46,369 nucleotides of DNA from the NCBI GenBank assembly GCA_902634515.1, contig CACPKH010000009.1:1-46369 (forward strand), read 5' to 3'. Below the pieces are notes generated by a model. It was not told the DNA's origin, did not search any database, and saw nothing but the letters and a program-made list of their open reading frames with translations. A program made the translations under genes and the position numbers. Of this stretch, positions 2,061 through 9,191 are shown piece by piece (position 1 is the stretch's first letter; every line of letters begins with the position of its first letter). Origin of the DNA: an uncultured Prochlorococcus sp. (GTDB lineage: Bacteria; Cyanobacteriota; Cyanobacteriia; PCC-6307; Cyanobiaceae).

Positions 2061-3854
2061 GTGAAAAAAGGACCAATAGAAACAAGTGATATAGATAAAC
2101 AGGATCTTTTCCCTTGTTTAGTAAATGGCGGCGATAAAAGTAGGTTTGAGCAATTTAAAGCTAGTAGCAATTATTTAGAGGAGCCTCTCTTTAATGAACT
2201 AAAAAACGATTCTGACCACTTCACCAATGATGCTGTTCAATTACTAAAATTTCATGGCAGTTATCAACAAGACAATAGAGAGAATAGACAAAAGGGTAGT
2301 AATAAAGACTGGCAATTGATGCTAAGACTTAGAAGTCCTGGAGGAACAATCCCTTCATCTCTTTTTATTGCCTTAAATGATTTATCAAACAGATTAGGGA
2401 ATCAAACTCTTAGGGCAACAACTAGGCAAGCATTCCAAATGCATGGAATTAGAAAAGAGAATCTCAAGGAGGTTATAGGGATCATAATTAAATCAATGGG
2501 TTCAACCCTCGCAGCCTGCGGAGATATAAATAGAAATGTAATGGCTCCAGCTGCTCCATTCAGTCATGGTGGTTACCCTATTGCACGAAAACTTGCCAAT
2601 GACATAGCTGACTTGCTAACGCCTATAAAGGCAGAAGAAACTTATTTAGACATTTGGGTTGATGGAGATTTGACCTATAGGATTAAATCCTCTGAAAAAG
2701 TTAAACGAGTTAAAGAACGTCAATTGAAAGGTGGTATCTTTAGTGGAGATACAAAAGAACCGCTATATGGGAAAACATATCTTCCAAGAAAATTCAAGTG
2801 TGGAGTTACTGTACCTGGAGATAATTCTATAGATATTTTAACGCAAGATATTGGGCTAGTAGCATTTACTAGTAAAAGTGGTCAGCTAGAAGGTTGTAAT
2901 GTCTATATAGGGGGAGGGATGGGAAGAACACATAACAATGATGAAACTTTTGCAAGAATTGCAGATCCACTTGGATACGTTTCAGCGGAACATATATTAG
3001 ATCTTGTTCAATCCATTTTAGCCCTACAAAGAGATTACGGTGACCGGAAAACAAGACGCCATTCTCGAATGAAATACTTAATACATACAAAAAAAATAGA
3101 CTGGTTTACAAAAACATTAAAATCAAAATACTTTAAATATACAATAAATGAACTGAGAACAGAGCCTACGCCACAGTTAGTTGATTACCTTGGTTGGCAT
3201 AGACAAACTACTAACCTATCCTTTGTAGGTATTCCCTTATTATCTGGCAGGTTAGACAACAAACTTAAAACAAATCTTGTTAAAATTGTTGATAAATTCA
3301 AGCTTGAAATTCGTATTACCCCGAATCAGGACTTGCTACTCTGCAATATAGGGAATTTTCAAAAGAACGCCGTAAGGCATTCCTTAATGGAAATGGGTAT
3401 TTCAAATCCAGAGAACCCAAATCCAATAAGAAGACACGCATTAGCATGTCCTGCACTACCTTTATGTGGTTTAGCAATAACAGAGGCTGAGCGATCGTTA
3501 CCTGACATTCTTGATCGTATAGAGAATCAATTAAAAATAAAGAAAATTAATAAAACTATTTTAGTAAGGATGACTGGCTGTCCAAATGGATGTGCTAGAC
3601 CTTACATGGCTGAATTAGCATTAGTAGGAAGCGGTGTAGATCAATATCAACTTTGGCTTGGTGGAAGTAGAAATCTTCAACGTTTAGCTAAGCCATATAT
3701 TCAAAAAATGCCTTTAGAAAAATTGGAACTAACTCTTGAGCCGTTATTGACGAGTTGGAAAAGTGCTTCTAAAAGTATTAGTTTTGGAGACCACATAAAT
3801 GAGATGGGAGATCAATTAGTAAATCAATTATTATCTGGTGCCCAAGAACCATAA
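2061..3854 (+). CDS. sir: Ferredoxin-dependent sulfite reductase
   Basis: The enzyme reduces sulfite to sulfide with six electrons from ferredoxin in assimilatory sulfur metabolism. The 597-residue protein has the duplicated nitrite/sulfite reductase fold. The siroheme-[4Fe-4S] ligands are visible as C463-x5-C469 (CPALPLC) and C507-x3-C511 (TGCPNGC). The segment TGCPNGCARPYMAEL is typical of sulfite reductases; nitrite reductases carry GCPNSC-type sequences. It starts at GTG 2061 with an AGGG-type Shine-Dalgarno a few bases upstream. It is divergent from glyS, and its last 31 bases overlap the convergent dipeptidase gene. I see no NtcA box upstream, which fits a sulfur rather than a nitrogen role. 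Confidence 0.93.
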   Translation: MKKGPIETSDIDKQDLFPCLVNGGDKSRFEQFKASSNYLEEPLFNELKNDSDHFTNDAVQLLKFHGSYQQDNRENRQKGSNKDWQLMLRLRSPGGTIPSSLFIALNDLSNRLGNQTLRATTRQAFQMHGIRKENLKEVIGIIIKSMGSTLAACGDINRNVMAPAAPFSHGGYPIARKLANDIADLLTPIKAEETYLDIWVDGDLTYRIKSSEKVKRVKERQLKGGIFSGDTKEPLYGKTYLPRKFKCGVTVPGDNSIDILTQDIGLVAFTSKSGQLEGCNVYIGGGMGRTHNNDETFARIADPLGYVSAEHILDLVQSILALQRDYGDRKTRRHSRMKYLIHTKKIDWFTKTLKSKYFKYTINELRTEPTPQLVDYLGWHRQTTNLSFVGIPLLSGRLDNKLKTNLVKIVDKFKLEIRITPNQDLLLCNIGNFQKNAVRHSLMEMGISNPENPNPIRRHALACPALPLCGLAITEAERSLPDILDRIENQLKIKKINKTILVRMTGCPNGCARPYMAELALVGSGVDQYQLWLGGSRNLQRLAKPYIQKMPLEKLELTLEPLLTSWKSASKSISFGDHINEMGDQLVNQLLSGAQEP

Positions 3855-4552
3855 ATTGCATAAGAAGAATGTGTTAACCAAGCCCACAATTGATCTCCAT
3901 AGCTAAAGTGCCACCATTCATTGGGGTGCTGAACAAATCCAGCTCTTATCATCACATCGCAAAGAAGCATCCTCCTTGAATGAAATAACAAATATTTAGG
4001 ATTAGATGAATTAATAGATAATTCCTTATAAAAGTTGGGAGTTGAGATGTCTCCAAGCTCATCAATTTCGCCTCCCATTTCCAAAGGTCCAGAATTATCT
4101 GCAAGTGTTAGATCAATAGCAGCACCGGTACTGTGAGGAGGTGGCGTTAACGGATTTACACTTGGAGGGGCCCAAAACTGTTCAACTTCATTAATTAAAG
4201 ACAAAAATTCCTTCGATTGATCATCTGAATTAGGTTTAATTCCCCTTACTTTGCATTCTGTTTTTATTACATGATTAACCATAAATTCCTGAACACTTAT
4301 AGGACGCCAAGCATCAAAGATTGCAAGTCTTAAGTCATTACACTCCGCTTTAAGTAAGTTTTGAGCTATTTCAAGGAATTTTATAACTTCATTACGGAGC
4401 ATCCAGGGATTTGCAATGCTTCCATAAGGTGCACCAATTGATAAATAAGGATGAGGTTCTAATCTATGGAAATTTACAGGAATCTCTAAGAGAGGTTCAC
4501 TTAATGGTTTTATAGGTATTTGAGACCAAGGTCTATTCAAGATAAACTCCAT
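3824..4552 (-). CDS. VanX/DdpX-like D-alanyl-D-alanine dipeptidase (peptidase M15D)
   Basis: This is a predicted zinc dipeptidase cleaving D-Ala-D-Ala, the peptidoglycan precursor dipeptide. From the ATG at 4552 the protein has 242 residues. The VanX zinc motif is present as PPHSTGAAID (H140, D147), followed by the EWWH motif (E212 catalytic base, H215 third zinc ligand). An arginine in DAWRP (R83) matches the transition-state arginine of VanX. A start at ATG 4594 would add 14 residues (MWKNLPILWKEFFI) with no homology I recognise, so I prefer 4552; neither start has a clear Shine-Dalgarno. No signal peptide is evident, so it is probably cytoplasmic, and with no vanA/vanH nearby recycling of wall dipeptide is likelier than glycopeptide resistance. 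Its end overlaps sir by 31 bases. Confidence 0.85.
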   Translation of the reverse strand: MEFILNRPWSQIPIKPLSEPLLEIPVNFHRLEPHPYLSIGAPYGSIANPWMLRNEVIKFLEIAQNLLKAECNDLRLAIFDAWRPISVQEFMVNHVIKTECKVRGIKPNSDDQSKEFLSLINEVEQFWAPPSVNPLTPPPHSTGAAIDLTLADNSGPLEMGGEIDELGDISTPNFYKELSINSSNPKYLLFHSRRMLLCDVMIRAGFVQHPNEWWHFSYGDQLWAWLTHSSYAIYGSWAPDNN

Positions 4553-4879
4553 TATAAAAAATTCTTTCCACAGGATGGGGAGATTTTTCCACAATTATAA
4601 TCTCGTTTTTTAAAGCAAATAAAAGCTCTCTCATATGTTTTTAAAAAGAATCTATAATTAATTTAATGTTTTCTCCTAGTTTGATTTAACAACTTAAACC
4701 TATAGTGATTTTTCCAAAACCTTTATGATCATTGACTTTAATAGAGTGTAGATTAATCTAGTTTCTTTTATTATTTTTTTATCATTCAAACGTTTTTAAA
4801 CTCATAATGTTCTAAATTATACAAAACCCAACATGAGTCTCAAATGAATCTCGTTCGAGACTCATTTTTGTGGAAAACT
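4553..4879. other. Gene-free stretch between recG and the dipeptidase gene
   Basis: These 327 very A+T-rich bases contain no open frame longer than a few codons on either strand. The recG-proximal end holds a strong hairpin (separate entry). On the plus strand a possible promoter is TTGACT at 4732-4737 with TAATCT at 4754-4759 (16-base spacing). It points toward the hairpin, so a plus-strand transcript of about 100 bases ending at the T-run near 4869 is conceivable. The promoter of the minus-strand dipeptidase gene must also lie here, but I cannot single it out. Confidence 0.5.
4833..4869. terminator. Hairpin with T-run, candidate terminator after recG or of a plus-strand small RNA
   Basis: A perfect 9-bp stem pairs ATGAGTCTC (4833-4841) with GAGACTCAT (4857-4865) around a 15-base loop. 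On the plus strand the stem runs directly into TTTTT (865-869 of this kilobase), the textbook intrinsic-terminator arrangement. On the minus strand it begins 14 bases after the recG stop codon, but only a weak GTTGGGTTTT tract follows. TCTC at 4849-4852 offers the GAGA at 4857-4860 an alternative, shorter pairing. The canonical orientation is plus, yet the nearest plus-strand gene (sir) ends almost 1 kb earlier. Confidence 0.6.
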
Positions 4880-7207
4880 TTAGTTTAGTTGTACTTCTTG
4901 ACTAAAACGATTCTTATACGATTCCATGCACCCTTTAATTAAATCATTTTTCTCAAGAAAAGGGTCTGAGTTTAAAATATAAATTGCTTCATTTCTTGCA
5001 AGATCAAGCATCGATACATCATCAATTAAGTTAGCCAAGGCAAAATCAGGCAACCCAGACTGCCTAGTACCAAGAATTTGACCGGGTCCTCTTAAACGAA
5101 GATCTAATTCTGAGATTTCAAACCCATCATTCGAATTTACTAATACTTCTAAACGTTTTTTAGATTGTGGAGTTTTCCCTGTATCAATTAACACGCACTC
5201 AGAGAAATTAGTGCCCCGACCAACACGTCCTCGCAATTGATGTAATTGGGCAAGTCCAAAGTGATCAGCATTATCAATAATGATAACTGTAGCTTCGGGG
5301 ACATCTATACCAACTTCTATAACAGTTGTAGAAACAAGAATTTTTAAACGTCCTGAATGAAAGTCATCTAAAACTAATTTCTTTTCCTTAGATTTCATTC
5401 TTCCATGCAATAAACCAATATTTAAATCTGTAAAAATCTCTTGAGACAATTCATTAAAAACGTCAACAGCCGATCTTAAGTCTACATTCTCTGACTCCTC
5501 AACTAAAGGTAAAACGTAATATGCTTGTTCGCCTAATGATATTTTGTGTTTTATTATCTCAAATGCTTTATTGCGTTGAGATGATTTCAACAAAGTAGTT
5601 TTTATAGGAGTTCTACCAGGAGGAAGTTGATCAATTTGACTAACATCAAGATCACCATGAACTGACAATGCAAGTGTTCTTGGTATAGGAGTAGCTGTCA
5701 TTGATAAAAGATGAGGTTGAAGACCTTTACTTAACAATTGATTCCTTTGATTTACACCAAATCTGTGTTGTTCATCTACTACAACTAAACCTAGACGAAA
5801 GAAATTTACTCGGTCTTCAATTAACGCATGAGTACCAACAATAATATCAACATTGCCAGAAGATAAATTATTAAGAATCTCAACACGTTTGCCAGGATTA
5901 GTTGAACCTGTTAGCAATTCAACTCTTACATTTAACTGAGGCAGCCATTTACATAGGTTCTTATAATGTTGTTGAGCTAAAACTTCAGTTGGAGCCATTA
6001 AAACTCCTTGCCATTTTGATTGTACTGCTTTTAACAAAGTTGCTATTGCTATAATCGTTTTTCCACTTCCAACATCACCTTGAACCAATCGAGTCATAGG
6101 CTCAGTTAAAGAAAGGTCATTGTTTATTTCGTCAAGGACTCTAATTTGTGCATCAGTTAATGAAAATGGTAGTAATTTAAAAAATTCGTTTACAAGGAAA
6201 TTGTCTACTTGGGTAATTGATATTTTAGGGGCGATCCTACTCTTAAGTTGATTACGTCTTAGTAGTAGTCCCAATTGCATAAAAAGAAATTCATTAAAAA
6301 TGATTCTTTTACGAGCGGAATCAAGTAAAGCTTTATTAGTAGGCCTATGAATCTGAAGCAGGGCTTGATTGATAGGCACAAGAGATAGATAACTCAAACG
6401 TTCTTGAGGTAATGGATCTGGCCAATCCTTAACTAAGGGTAAGCATAAAGAAATTAGCGATCTGATTCTTTCAGCTGTAATACCCTTTGTAAGGGAATAA
6501 ATAGGCAATATCCTTCCTATAGAGGCAGACTTAATTATTGAATATGAATTATCTAGTATTTCTATTATTGGATCTACAAATGTTTTACCATAAGAACTTT
6601 CCTTTACTAATCCACTAACGGCAATAAGTGAACCTTTGGTATAAAGACTTTCCTGCTTTTTAAGGAAGGACTTATTAGATAACCTTTTACCCGCAAAAAA
6701 CTTAGTAATCTTAATTTTGCCGCTTATATCTTGAATATTGATATTTAAAATTGAAAGGTTTTTATTTCGAGGACTTATAAAAGATCCTACGCTACGTACA
6801 TAAGCAAGTATAGTGGCTGTCTCTCCAGATTTTAATTCAGAAATTCGCTTGATAATTGAATAATCTATATAATCCTTTGGGAAATAAAGTATTAAATCCT
6901 TTATAGTTAATATTCCAAGTTTTGATAAAGAATCTGTTATTTTAATGCCAATACCTTTAACAGAACTTATTGCACTATCTATTTTTAGTAAAGAGTCTTT
7001 CTTCTCTATAGTTAAATCAATATCTCCATTTATCCTTAGCTTTGGCGCATTAAAAGTCTCTTCATCTTTATTTAAATTTGTTATCTTATAAAGTAGCTTT
7101 CTTGTTCTAACAACTAAAAAGCGTCTTTTCTTATTAGTTAATGTAGAATATTCTTTGAATTGTTGAGATAAATAGTTTAGTTGGCTATGAATTTCCTGAG
7201 TTATCAT
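4880..7207 (-). CDS. recG: ATP-dependent DNA helicase RecG
   Basis: RecG remodels stalled replication forks and Holliday junctions. The 775-residue reading from ATG 7207 has an OB-fold wedge region (about residues 80-230). The superfamily 2 helicase core has Walker A GDVGSGKT (377-384), DEQH (478-481), motif III SMTATPIPRTLAL, and motif VI RGRVGRG near the C-terminal TRG part. The coding frame continues upstream of 7207 (see the 7208..7372 entry), and the first in-frame ATG probably cuts off the N-terminal extension that I recall in cyanobacterial RecG. No ATG, GTG or TTG exists in that extension. The preceding gene ends at 7368, so translational coupling is likely. The function is certain; the start is not. 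Confidence 0.95.
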   Translation of the reverse strand: MITQEIHSQLNYLSQQFKEYSTLTNKKRRFLVVRTRKLLYKITNLNKDEETFNAPKLRINGDIDLTIEKKDSLLKIDSAISSVKGIGIKITDSLSKLGILTIKDLILYFPKDYIDYSIIKRISELKSGETATILAYVRSVGSFISPRNKNLSILNINIQDISGKIKITKFFAGKRLSNKSFLKKQESLYTKGSLIAVSGLVKESSYGKTFVDPIIEILDNSYSIIKSASIGRILPIYSLTKGITAERIRSLISLCLPLVKDWPDPLPQERLSYLSLVPINQALLQIHRPTNKALLDSARKRIIFNEFLFMQLGLLLRRNQLKSRIAPKISITQVDNFLVNEFFKLLPFSLTDAQIRVLDEINNDLSLTEPMTRLVQGDVGSGKTIIAIATLLKAVQSKWQGVLMAPTEVLAQQHYKNLCKWLPQLNVRVELLTGSTNPGKRVEILNNLSSGNVDIIVGTHALIEDRVNFFRLGLVVVDEQHRFGVNQRNQLLSKGLQPHLLSMTATPIPRTLALSVHGDLDVSQIDQLPPGRTPIKTTLLKSSQRNKAFEIIKHKISLGEQAYYVLPLVEESENVDLRSAVDVFNELSQEIFTDLNIGLLHGRMKSKEKKLVLDDFHSGRLKILVSTTVIEVGIDVPEATVIIIDNADHFGLAQLHQLRGRVGRGTNFSECVLIDTGKTPQSKKRLEVLVNSNDGFEISELDLRLRGPGQILGTRQSGLPDFALANLIDDVSMLDLARNEAIYILNSDPFLEKNDLIKGCMESYKNRFSQEVQLN

Positions 7208-7372
7208 ATCATTATCAATAAGCTTAAGTTTATTAGAAAGAAAAGTATTGAAATTCTCATTTCTTCCTAAAATATTTACAAAACCTTTTTCTGCCTCTAA
7301 TGTTAGAGACTTTTGAAGTAATCTGAGTAGAGTATTAAAATCTTTAGTTTTATCAGAGTTTGTTGATTTAAT
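7208..7372 (-). other. recG: Probable N-terminal extension of RecG lacking a canonical start
   Basis: In frame with recG, these 55 codons are free of stops and read as a plausible amphipathic helix plus turn (LLRLLQKSLTLEAEKGFVN, then ILGRNENF). This resembles the N-terminal segment of cyanobacterial RecG proteins as I remember them. The frame stays open back to a stop at 7454-7456 but contains no ATG, GTG or TTG. The possible initiators are ATT at 7370-7372, which overlaps the upstream gene's TAA as ATTAA, or ATC at 7373-7375. An A8 run (minus strand, 7375-7382) just before the upstream stop could instead allow slippage from the preceding gene into this frame (a +1 shift). Confidence 0.55.
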
Positions 7373-8510
7373 GATTTTTTTTAATTTTACTGGACCACCA
7401 ATTATTTCTAAGGTGATCCTGTAGTTTCCTGTTTTTCCAATATGACTCCTTTCTTACAAGATTATTTAAAAGCTTTTTATATTTATTGAGGATGTTTCTA
7501 GATTGACGTAATTCAAATTCATCAAATTCTAATTCAGAAGGAGTTATAAATAAACAAAATATATCGACTATATTTTCTATTTCATTAATAGGCAACCTAA
7601 TTCTAAGTAAGTTAGTAGGAGAGTCTAATGTAGGAATTTGATTAGTAATTACAGCATCTAAAAGACTTGTGGGTATAAAGGTATGAATTAACCCTACCCT
7701 TAGCAATTCAATATTTATAAGATGTGAAGTATTCCTCAACCTTCTTTGGAGTGCGTTTTCAAGAGAATTAATCCAATACAGAATCTCCTGAGGAGACTCT
7801 GGAGTGATTAAATTTTTATTGTATTCATTTGAATAATTTAAATTATTCTCTTCTAAATCAGATGAATCTTCTTTACTTTGTATGTTTTTTTTAAAAGGTT
7901 TGAATGAAATTGCCTTTTCCGCTAGAGCTAATACCGAATTAAAAATATCGGCCTTCTCATCTCTTAGGGAAAGATCTTTATTATCCTTATCAATATTATC
8001 GAAGGTATCATCTGAATCAATGTTTCTGTAACTATCATCTGACAAACTTGAGTTTAATGGAACATACCAAGGCTCTAAATTTAATTCACTTTCCAGTGGT
8101 AATGACAGTCCAAGTTCGATAGATTTATCCTTATAGCCTAAATTAACGTTAGTCTGAGTATCATCAGATTTAAGCTTGTCTTTAATAGACTGCCTTGACT
8201 TTTCTATCAAAGCATCATTTTCATTTTCAATTGTTTTTGAAAGATCTAATAAGTGCTCTATTGTTATAAGTGAATTAGTTTCTAAAAGTATTCCCCTGAT
8301 TTTATCTTGGAATATATCTTGCTCACTCTCTAATGGTAGTTGTGATAATTCACTCTTAGTTGATGTTATTAATTCTAAAATAGCTTTCTGGGTTGATCTG
8401 TGAATAGATTCTCTTAGATGTCGCAAATATAAAGCGTAGGTCTTGTAAATTTCTGGATAAACAGTTTTACCTTGGGATTGTAAAAGGTCTAATTGTTTCT
8501 GAGGTTCCAA
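7368..8510 (-). CDS. Cyanobacterial protein of unknown function between tsf and recG
   Basis: I do not recognise a characterised family in this 380-residue protein. The N-terminal half (about 1-130) is predicted helical and possibly coiled-coil (TYALYLRHLRESIHRSTQKA). The middle (about 145-225) is low-complexity and rich in Asp, Ser and Asn (DSDDTFDNIDKDNKD), probably disordered. The C-terminal third (about 235-370) looks folded and helical, with a basic, tryptophan-containing tail ending WWSSKIKKNH. No membrane segment or signal peptide is evident. It lies 24 bases after tsf and its stop touches the start region of recG, so it is probably co-transcribed with rpsB-tsf and coupled to recG. Confidence 0.85.
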   Translation of the reverse strand: MEPQKQLDLLQSQGKTVYPEIYKTYALYLRHLRESIHRSTQKAILELITSTKSELSQLPLESEQDIFQDKIRGILLETNSLITIEHLLDLSKTIENENDALIEKSRQSIKDKLKSDDTQTNVNLGYKDKSIELGLSLPLESELNLEPWYVPLNSSLSDDSYRNIDSDDTFDNIDKDNKDLSLRDEKADIFNSVLALAEKAISFKPFKKNIQSKEDSSDLEENNLNYSNEYNKNLITPESPQEILYWINSLENALQRRLRNTSHLINIELLRVGLIHTFIPTSLLDAVITNQIPTLDSPTNLLRIRLPINEIENIVDIFCLFITPSELEFDEFELRQSRNILNKYKKLLNNLVRKESYWKNRKLQDHLRNNWWSSKIKKNH

Positions 8511-8534: not shown

Positions 8535-9191
8535 TTAATTCGACGAAATAGAGGCTACTTCCTCTGCAAAGTCAACATTTTTAACTTCAATACCCTCTCC
8601 AAGAGTGTATCTAGTAAATCTTCTTACTTTTAGGTTTTCTCCAATTTGGCCTGATACTTCTTTAATTAACTCTTCAACTGAAACTGAACTATCTTTTATA
8701 AAAGGTTGGTCCAAAAGTGCTAATTCTTTTAATCTCTTTCCAATTCTTCCTTCTACAATTTTTGATTTAATTTGTTCAGGCTTGCCTTCTAAGTCATCTC
8801 TTCCCATTTCAATGCTCTTTTCTCTATTAACTATTTCATCTGGGATTTCTTCAACTGAAACATATTCAACATTTGGACAAGCTGCTATTTGCATAGCAAC
8901 ATCCCTTAAAAGGCCCTTAAAAATGTCTCCTCTAGCTACAAAATCAGTTTCACAATTAAGTTCTAAAAGAACTCCCACTCTAGATCCAGTATGGATATAG
9001 CTTCCTATTGACCCTTCTGCAGCCACTCTACTTGATTTCTTTTCTGCACTTGCTATACCTTTTTGACGAAGCCATTCAATCGCTTTTGTAAGATCTCCTG
9101 ATGTTTCTGAAAGAGCCTTCTTACAGTCCATCATTCCTGCACCTGTTTTATCTCGAAGATCTTTAACAAGTTTTGCTGTTATGTCAGCCAT
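8535..9191 (-). CDS. tsf: Translation elongation factor Ts
   Basis: EF-Ts is the GDP/GTP exchange factor for EF-Tu. The 218-residue protein begins with the UBA-like N-terminal module carrying [13 protein letters not shown] and an IEWLRQKG helix, followed by the core with [12 protein letters not shown]. It lacks part of the C-terminal dimerisation insert of the E. coli protein (about 283 residues), as is usual for the short cyanobacterial form. It follows rpsB on the same strand after a 114-base spacer, the conserved bacterial rpsB-tsf arrangement, so the rpsB leader probably also affects tsf. Confidence 0.97.

Follow-up and report, generated by a model that had tools for sequence, protein, structure and literature searches.

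The recG gene of an uncultured Prochlorococcus sp. is located on the minus strand of a 46,369-nucleotide stretch of contig CACPKH010000009.1 (hereafter the window), and no canonical start codon was found ahead of the region that encodes its conserved N-terminal domain. An in-frame TAA stop codon at positions 7456-7454 is followed by 82 codons (7453-7208) that include no ATG, GTG or TTG. The upstream open reading frame (ORF) terminates within this interval, its stop codon overlapping an ATT triplet of the recG frame, and a run of eight adenines (A8) is also present (Table 1). A preliminary description of this DNA had listed the open frame, the stop codon, the first ATG, the ATTAA overlap and the A8 run, the coordinates of which were all reproduced exactly from the sequence. 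The genome to which the window belongs, designated L001, comprises 1.19 Mb in 41 contigs and is 65.7 percent complete, and its base composition and gene content suggest a marine picocyanobacterium of Prochlorococcus type. No match to the upstream ORF was identified in Pfam or NCBIfam. It is situated between a tsf-like ORF (8535-9191) and recG, and an ORF in the same place precedes recG in the relatives inspected, often with a Trp-Trp pair near its end, the TGGTGG codons of which supply the GTG utilized as the recG start by many of them.

Table 1. Features of the recG locus in the window.
Feature	Position	Strand	Basis
recG coding sequence, if the start is ATT 7372 (830 amino acids and stop)	4880..7372	-	NF008170 and Pfam matches, alignment
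Best candidate start ATT, overlapping the upstream stop (ATTAA)	7370..7372	-	Sequence; stop-adjacent like the ATA of L012, L014 and L101
Alternative candidate start ATC, directly before the ATT	7373..7375	-	Sequence; L002 has ATT ATC in the same two slots
Rival candidate start ATT within the upstream gene and 4 nt after AAGGAG (7451-7446)	7439..7441	-	Best Shine-Dalgarno energy; unusable in L002 and L003
RecG N-terminal block (first helices) that is conserved and precedes the first ATG	7208..7327	-	pN/pS, invariant residues, modelled helices
First canonical start ATG, residue 56 counted from ATT 7372	7205..7207	-	Sequence
A8 run, proposed slippage site	7375..7382	-	Sequence; run-length test
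Upstream ORF, 380 amino acids from TTG 8510, stop TAA 7370-7368	7368..8510	-	No Pfam or NCBIfam match

The identity of the frame as RecG was established by a match to the NCBIfam model NF008170 of 1183.3 bits, relative to a curated cut-off of 975, and the Pfam RecG_wedge and helicase domains were also matched in the product. Residues 36-857 of the open frame aligned with positions 5-826 of NF008170, and since the alignment commences this close to the beginning of the model, a typical RecG would begin near the upstream stop codon and not at ATG 7207. In an alignment of 34 RecG proteins, numbered from ATT 7372, residues E26, F31, G36 and F41 were invariant and Q20, L23, N33 and R37 nearly so, all of which precede M56, the residue encoded by ATG 7207. 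The first of these invariant residues, the Glu at position 26, served as the reference for all relative positions given below, such that ATT 7372 is at -75.

Divergence in this region was codon-like. Across the block from -30 to +90, the three genomes of the related genus g39 exhibited mismatches at the first, second and third codon positions of 15/5/22, 15/6/21 (L016-L012) and 12/4/20 (L016-L014) of 40, with proportions of nonsynonymous differences (pN) of 0.21-0.26 versus proportions of synonymous differences (pS) of 0.63-0.74. These proportions were utilized in place of dN/dS, many values of which were 0.000 because synonymous sites were saturated. Within the genus of the window's genome (g1), the conserved block (Table 1) gave a pN of 0.25 and a pS of 0.63 between L001 and L002, and the codon-position pattern was weaker than that of g39 (13/8/18 for L001-L002 and 19/10/21 for L001-L003). 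An AlphaFold2 model built on the 34-protein alignment (mean predicted local distance difference test score (pLDDT) 81.8; predicted template modelling score 0.62) depicted the N-terminal domain as four helices at residues 5-28, 41-50, 59-73 and 80-100, with a pLDDT of approximately 90 from residue 11 onwards and low confidence for residues 1-4. The first modelled helix would thus begin four residues after the proposed start. Among solved structures, the RecG chain 1gm5 of Thermotoga maritima aligns to the query from position 40 on.

Consequently upon these invariant residues, the codon-like divergence and the modelled helices, the earlier suggestion that the sequence after the upstream stop codon is the N-terminal extension of RecG was borne out: the 55 residues encoded from the proposed start up to ATG 7207 are RecG protein under coding constraint. 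It is highly improbable that RecG starts at ATG 7207 and that the open frame ahead of it is an evolutionary remnant. This ATG is the first canonical codon, and would be the choice of gene finders limited to ATG, GTG and TTG, but the constraint and the invariant residues lie upstream of it, two N-terminal helices of the model would be deleted, and the same logic applied to the single-contig relative G040 (L016) would discard 109 codons of open frame. The N-termini of RecG in relatives, the comparison of which had been proposed as a check, refute a start at this ATG.

The length of the start-less lead was unusual within both genomes surveyed. In 446 kb of L001 (the window and 20 stretches of 20 kb), none but recG among the 314 ORFs with 150 or more amino acids had a start-less lead of at least 50 codons, the next longest being 45, whilst in 400 kb of G040 it was again the only one (264 ORFs), with a lead of 109 codons and the next longest 40. 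Under the codon usage of recG itself, however, a start-less run of 82 codons has a chance of p = 0.056 in L001, hence lead length is not decisive, whilst the run of 109 codons in L016 has a chance of p = 0.0016. The decisive point is that the 5' end of the conserved domain is without any start, rather than the length of the gap. Avoidance of start codons in the N-terminal region was considered and rejected, in that canonical codons averaged 3.0 per 100 in nine start-less genomes and 2.9 in 90 others.

The recG loci of relatives were retrieved from searches of 300 genomes of the family and 41 of genus g17, of which 118 distinct genomes were examined: 30 by best score, 30 of g17, 39 of 40 picked from the list and 19 further genomes. 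One locus (L080) was dropped, being cut by a contig end, and L229, a repeat of G121, was left uncounted; several genera, mostly low in the search list, fall outside this sample. A canonical start, usually GTG or ATG and situated within the preceding gene, was present ahead of the conserved domain in 109 of the 118. The remaining nine, all from the first 99 genomes and none from the further 19, encode no ATG, GTG or TTG before -33, and comprise L001, L002 and L003 (all of g1), L012, L014 and L016 (all of g39), L030 and L087 (g52) and L101 (g33). In L001, L003, L016 and L101 no canonical codon precedes the Glu at all, the first occurring at +90, +24, +258 and +18, respectively. In the other five, the earliest canonical codon is a TTG or ATG located between -21 and -9, which falls within the first helix.

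The phylogeny of RecG (99 rows, quick method) placed g1 and g39 in a single clade of six with a Shimodaira-Hasegawa-like approximate likelihood ratio test (SH-aLRT) value of 95, the branch leading to L101 was long, and L030 and L087 fell in a group that was not resolved. As L101 and L030/L087 fall outside the clade, the start would have been lost on at least three separate occasions, if the tree holds. Since six of the nine constitute a whole sampled clade and the other three are found elsewhere, the absence is inherited and repeated, not an error of one genome. An assembly or sequencing error that hides a normal start is barely plausible; the assembly of L001 is indeed fragmented and incomplete, and an AUH codon (AUA, AUC or AUU) is one base from ATG, but the start is absent from all six genomes of the clade, two of which (G040 and G078) are single-contig and 99-100 percent complete. 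Altering the A8 run to A5, A6, A7, A9, A10 or A11 placed no canonical start codon at the recG 5' end, with A7 and A10 merely fusing the gene to the upstream ORF. In recG of two sister picocyanobacterial genera, the conserved domain is thus truly without a preceding canonical start, and this state is inherited.

The common arrangement among relatives was a GTG or ATG start approximately 100-125 nt before the Glu, in the last codons of the preceding gene and often within the Trp-Trp codons. In g17 a GTG at -72 or -75 serves as the start, apart from a single TTG at -69, and a few genomes have a TTG at -66, overlapping or just after the upstream stop. The frame of the upstream gene relative to recG also varies among relatives (f1 or f2). 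In the leaders of L030, L087, L002 and L012 the ancestral in-frame GTG remains and is followed by a stop codon 1 to 8 codons later (in L030, GTG GAA GGA CCC TAA), forming a possible mini-ORF before recG. The g17 RecG proteins (L049-L078) are highly divergent, with approximately 50 percent identity to that of the window and a stem branch of 1.58. In G026, a 95 percent complete relative, no RecG-level match was found (the best, at E = 4e-69, is at the level of the second-best helicase elsewhere), reflecting gene loss or an assembly gap. A scan of genome contigs returned only two unrelated helicase loci, and a scan of viral contigs returned no match.

From these observations we consider it probable that recG of L001 and its sister group starts at a near-cognate AUH codon beside the upstream stop codon, coupled to the preceding gene. 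The proposed start codons would be AUU or AUC in the window and AUA in g39. The start in the window is most likely ATT 7372 or ATC 7375. A rare codon, as had been proposed, is thus the best reading, whilst ATT 7372-7370 as the exact codon is plausible and unproven. The stretch of L016 that extends from the last in-frame stop (-72) to -33 holds a single AUN codon (N, any base), an ATA at -63 located behind AGGGA. An ATA at -63 is also present in L012 (preceded by AAGGA, forming ATAG with the upstream stop codon TAG, and accompanied by an ATC at -54), in L014 (with further ATA codons at -72 and -81) and in the distant L101, and is hence common to all three g39 genomes and L101. This shared codon stands out because its neighbours differ, the preceding codons being CTT, ACC, ACC and AAC and the following codons GAA, GAC, ACT and GAC in L016, L012, L014 and L101, respectively, although the slot was picked out on inspection of genomes that are related to one another. 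The candidate start lies within a few bases of the upstream stop, as in a translationally coupled pair, in L001 (start minus stop distance -2), L012 (-1), L014 (-5), L101 (+8) and L003 (+4, if ATA at -72 is the start); the distance is looser in L016 (+28) and L002 (+17).

Several observations weigh against this explanation. The three g1 genomes have no alignable AUH codon in common, the candidates being ATC ATT at -78/-75 in L001, ATT ATC at -78/-75 in L002, and CTG at -81 or ATA at -72 or -63 in L003, whilst L030 offers only an ATC at -90 or a TTA at -66. As AUH codons are common, amounting to approximately 10 percent of all L001 codons and to between 5 and 9 percent of those in L101 and the remaining five clade members, some near the upstream stop are expected by chance. 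No Shine-Dalgarno sequence precedes ATT 7372 (+0.8 kcal/mol). The mismatches between L002 and L003 (15/15/24 by codon position) form a weak coding pattern, and a short-start protein from the canonical codon at -21 to -9 in L002, L012, L014, L030 and L087 is, strictly, still conceivable. 

At the shared ATA the Shine-Dalgarno energies were -5.1 kcal/mol in L012 (p 0.09), -4.5 in L016 (p 0.18) and -0.4 in both L014 and L101; the canonical GTG start of the four g17 genomes tested was also without a Shine-Dalgarno sequence. The best energy among the candidates (-8.5 kcal/mol, p = 0.01), that of a strong Shine-Dalgarno sequence (AAGGAG), belongs to ATT 7441-7439 of L001 at -144.

This last codon, at which recG may start in L001 alone, would render RecG 23 codons longer and overlap the upstream gene in the manner of the ancestral GTG arrangement. 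No stop interrupts the recG frame from 7453 onwards, and in most relatives recG does begin within the upstream gene. Nevertheless, such a start is unlikely, in that its equivalent is excluded by in-frame stops in L003, L002 and the g39 genomes, the AAGGAG is accounted for by codons of the upstream gene (Arg-Lys-Glu), and the additional residues were matched by no RecG model, the NF008170 alignment beginning at frame residue 36.

Slippage of ribosomes or RNA polymerase on the A8 run, fusing the upstream protein to RecG, had been offered as the other possibility and is very unlikely. A transcript with A7 or A10 would give one open frame through both genes, and L014 also has an A8 run. However, these are the only run lengths among A5 to A11 that join the frames, and L014 is the only start-less relative with such a run, there being none in the leaders of L016, L012 and L003. 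In L016 the TAA that ends the upstream gene at -91 precedes two recG-frame stops (TAG TAG), and in L002 the upstream stop precedes a recG-frame TAA; a fusion by a single shift is impossible in these two genomes because of these further stops. With the relative frame of the two genes also differing between relatives, neither the run, the overlap nor the frame has been kept, and this part of the preliminary description was not sustained.

Under the AUH-start explanation, the usual GTG or ATG of the family in the tail of the preceding gene would have been lost in the ancestor of the two genera via stop codons and changes in relative frame, and replaced by a weak start closer to the conserved domain. 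Ribosomes that had just completed the preceding gene would initiate on recG by translational coupling, and a low level of RecG would result. There is an outside chance of a more radical variant, whereby ribosomes restart on recG after the upstream stop almost regardless of the start codon (AUA, AUU, AUC and perhaps the CUG of L087 and the UUA of L030); recG, a housekeeping helicase gene, would then have dispensed with a real start codon throughout the existence of two genera, with the same loss in two or more additional lineages.

Elsewhere in the window, two long ORFs at 2061-3854 (plus strand) and 3824-4594 (minus strand) overlap tail to tail by 31 bases (3824-3854).

Near-cognate starts have been established in other bacteria. 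The infC gene of Escherichia coli, which encodes IF3, begins at the rare codon AUU, and resembles the present case in being a housekeeping gene with an AUU start. Its autoregulation is mentioned in PMC13009471, though the IF3 loop provides no precedent in this lineage, because infC starts with ATG in all 13 loci recovered from the 15 relatives searched. An additional initiator tRNA in G040 was similarly rejected, its 39 tRNAs including an ordinary set of three with the anticodon CAU. According to PMC13009471, AUA and AUU starts were mapped by ribosome profiling in ccpN, cvfC1, citZ and infC of Staphylococcus aureus, with those of ccpN and cvfC1 kept between staphylococci and that of ccpN also in Bacillus subtilis; AUH reporters yielded approximately 10 percent of AUG in poor medium, and infC, cvfC1 and ccpN have extended Shine-Dalgarno sequences. 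The recG gene shares with these the near-cognate AUH codon in place of AUG, but its start is a predicted one, located at the upstream stop and lacking a Shine-Dalgarno sequence in L001. In Borrelia burgdorferi pncA, the abstract of PMC13398362 describes an AUU start demonstrated by experiment, a structure showing that the N-terminus is needed, and a database protein that is truncated since the true start is AUU, as would be the case here; the recG start is a predicted one, and an overlapping stop is not mentioned in the abstract. Translational coupling at stop/start overlaps of neighbouring genes is reviewed in PMC12548453, and these pairs resemble recG in that the second gene starts a few bases at most from the stop of the first, as with the ATTAA and ATAG overlaps here, although the examples in the part of the review consulted are not described with AUH starts. 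A literature search that covered mostly titles and the openings of abstracts returned no report of such a recG start, or of this phenomenon in cyanobacteria; the first 300,000 characters of PMC5009743 mention neither Prochlorococcus nor recG, and the available part of PMC11497404 has nothing on AUH starts.

The recG gene described here thus probably adds a new case to a form of translation initiation that is uncommon but already known. If this is so, gene finders restricted to ATG, GTG and TTG shorten recG in this clade, by 55 residues in the window, and G040, in which the first canonical recG codon sits 109 codons into the open frame, would be truncated also. A DNA-repair gene would then furnish a cyanobacterial example of a conserved AUH start, and this in organisms that begin their own IF3 gene with ATG. 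Having repeatedly lost the start beside an upstream stop codon, these genomes would provide a clean natural test of how poor a start codon stop-coupled reinitiation can tolerate.

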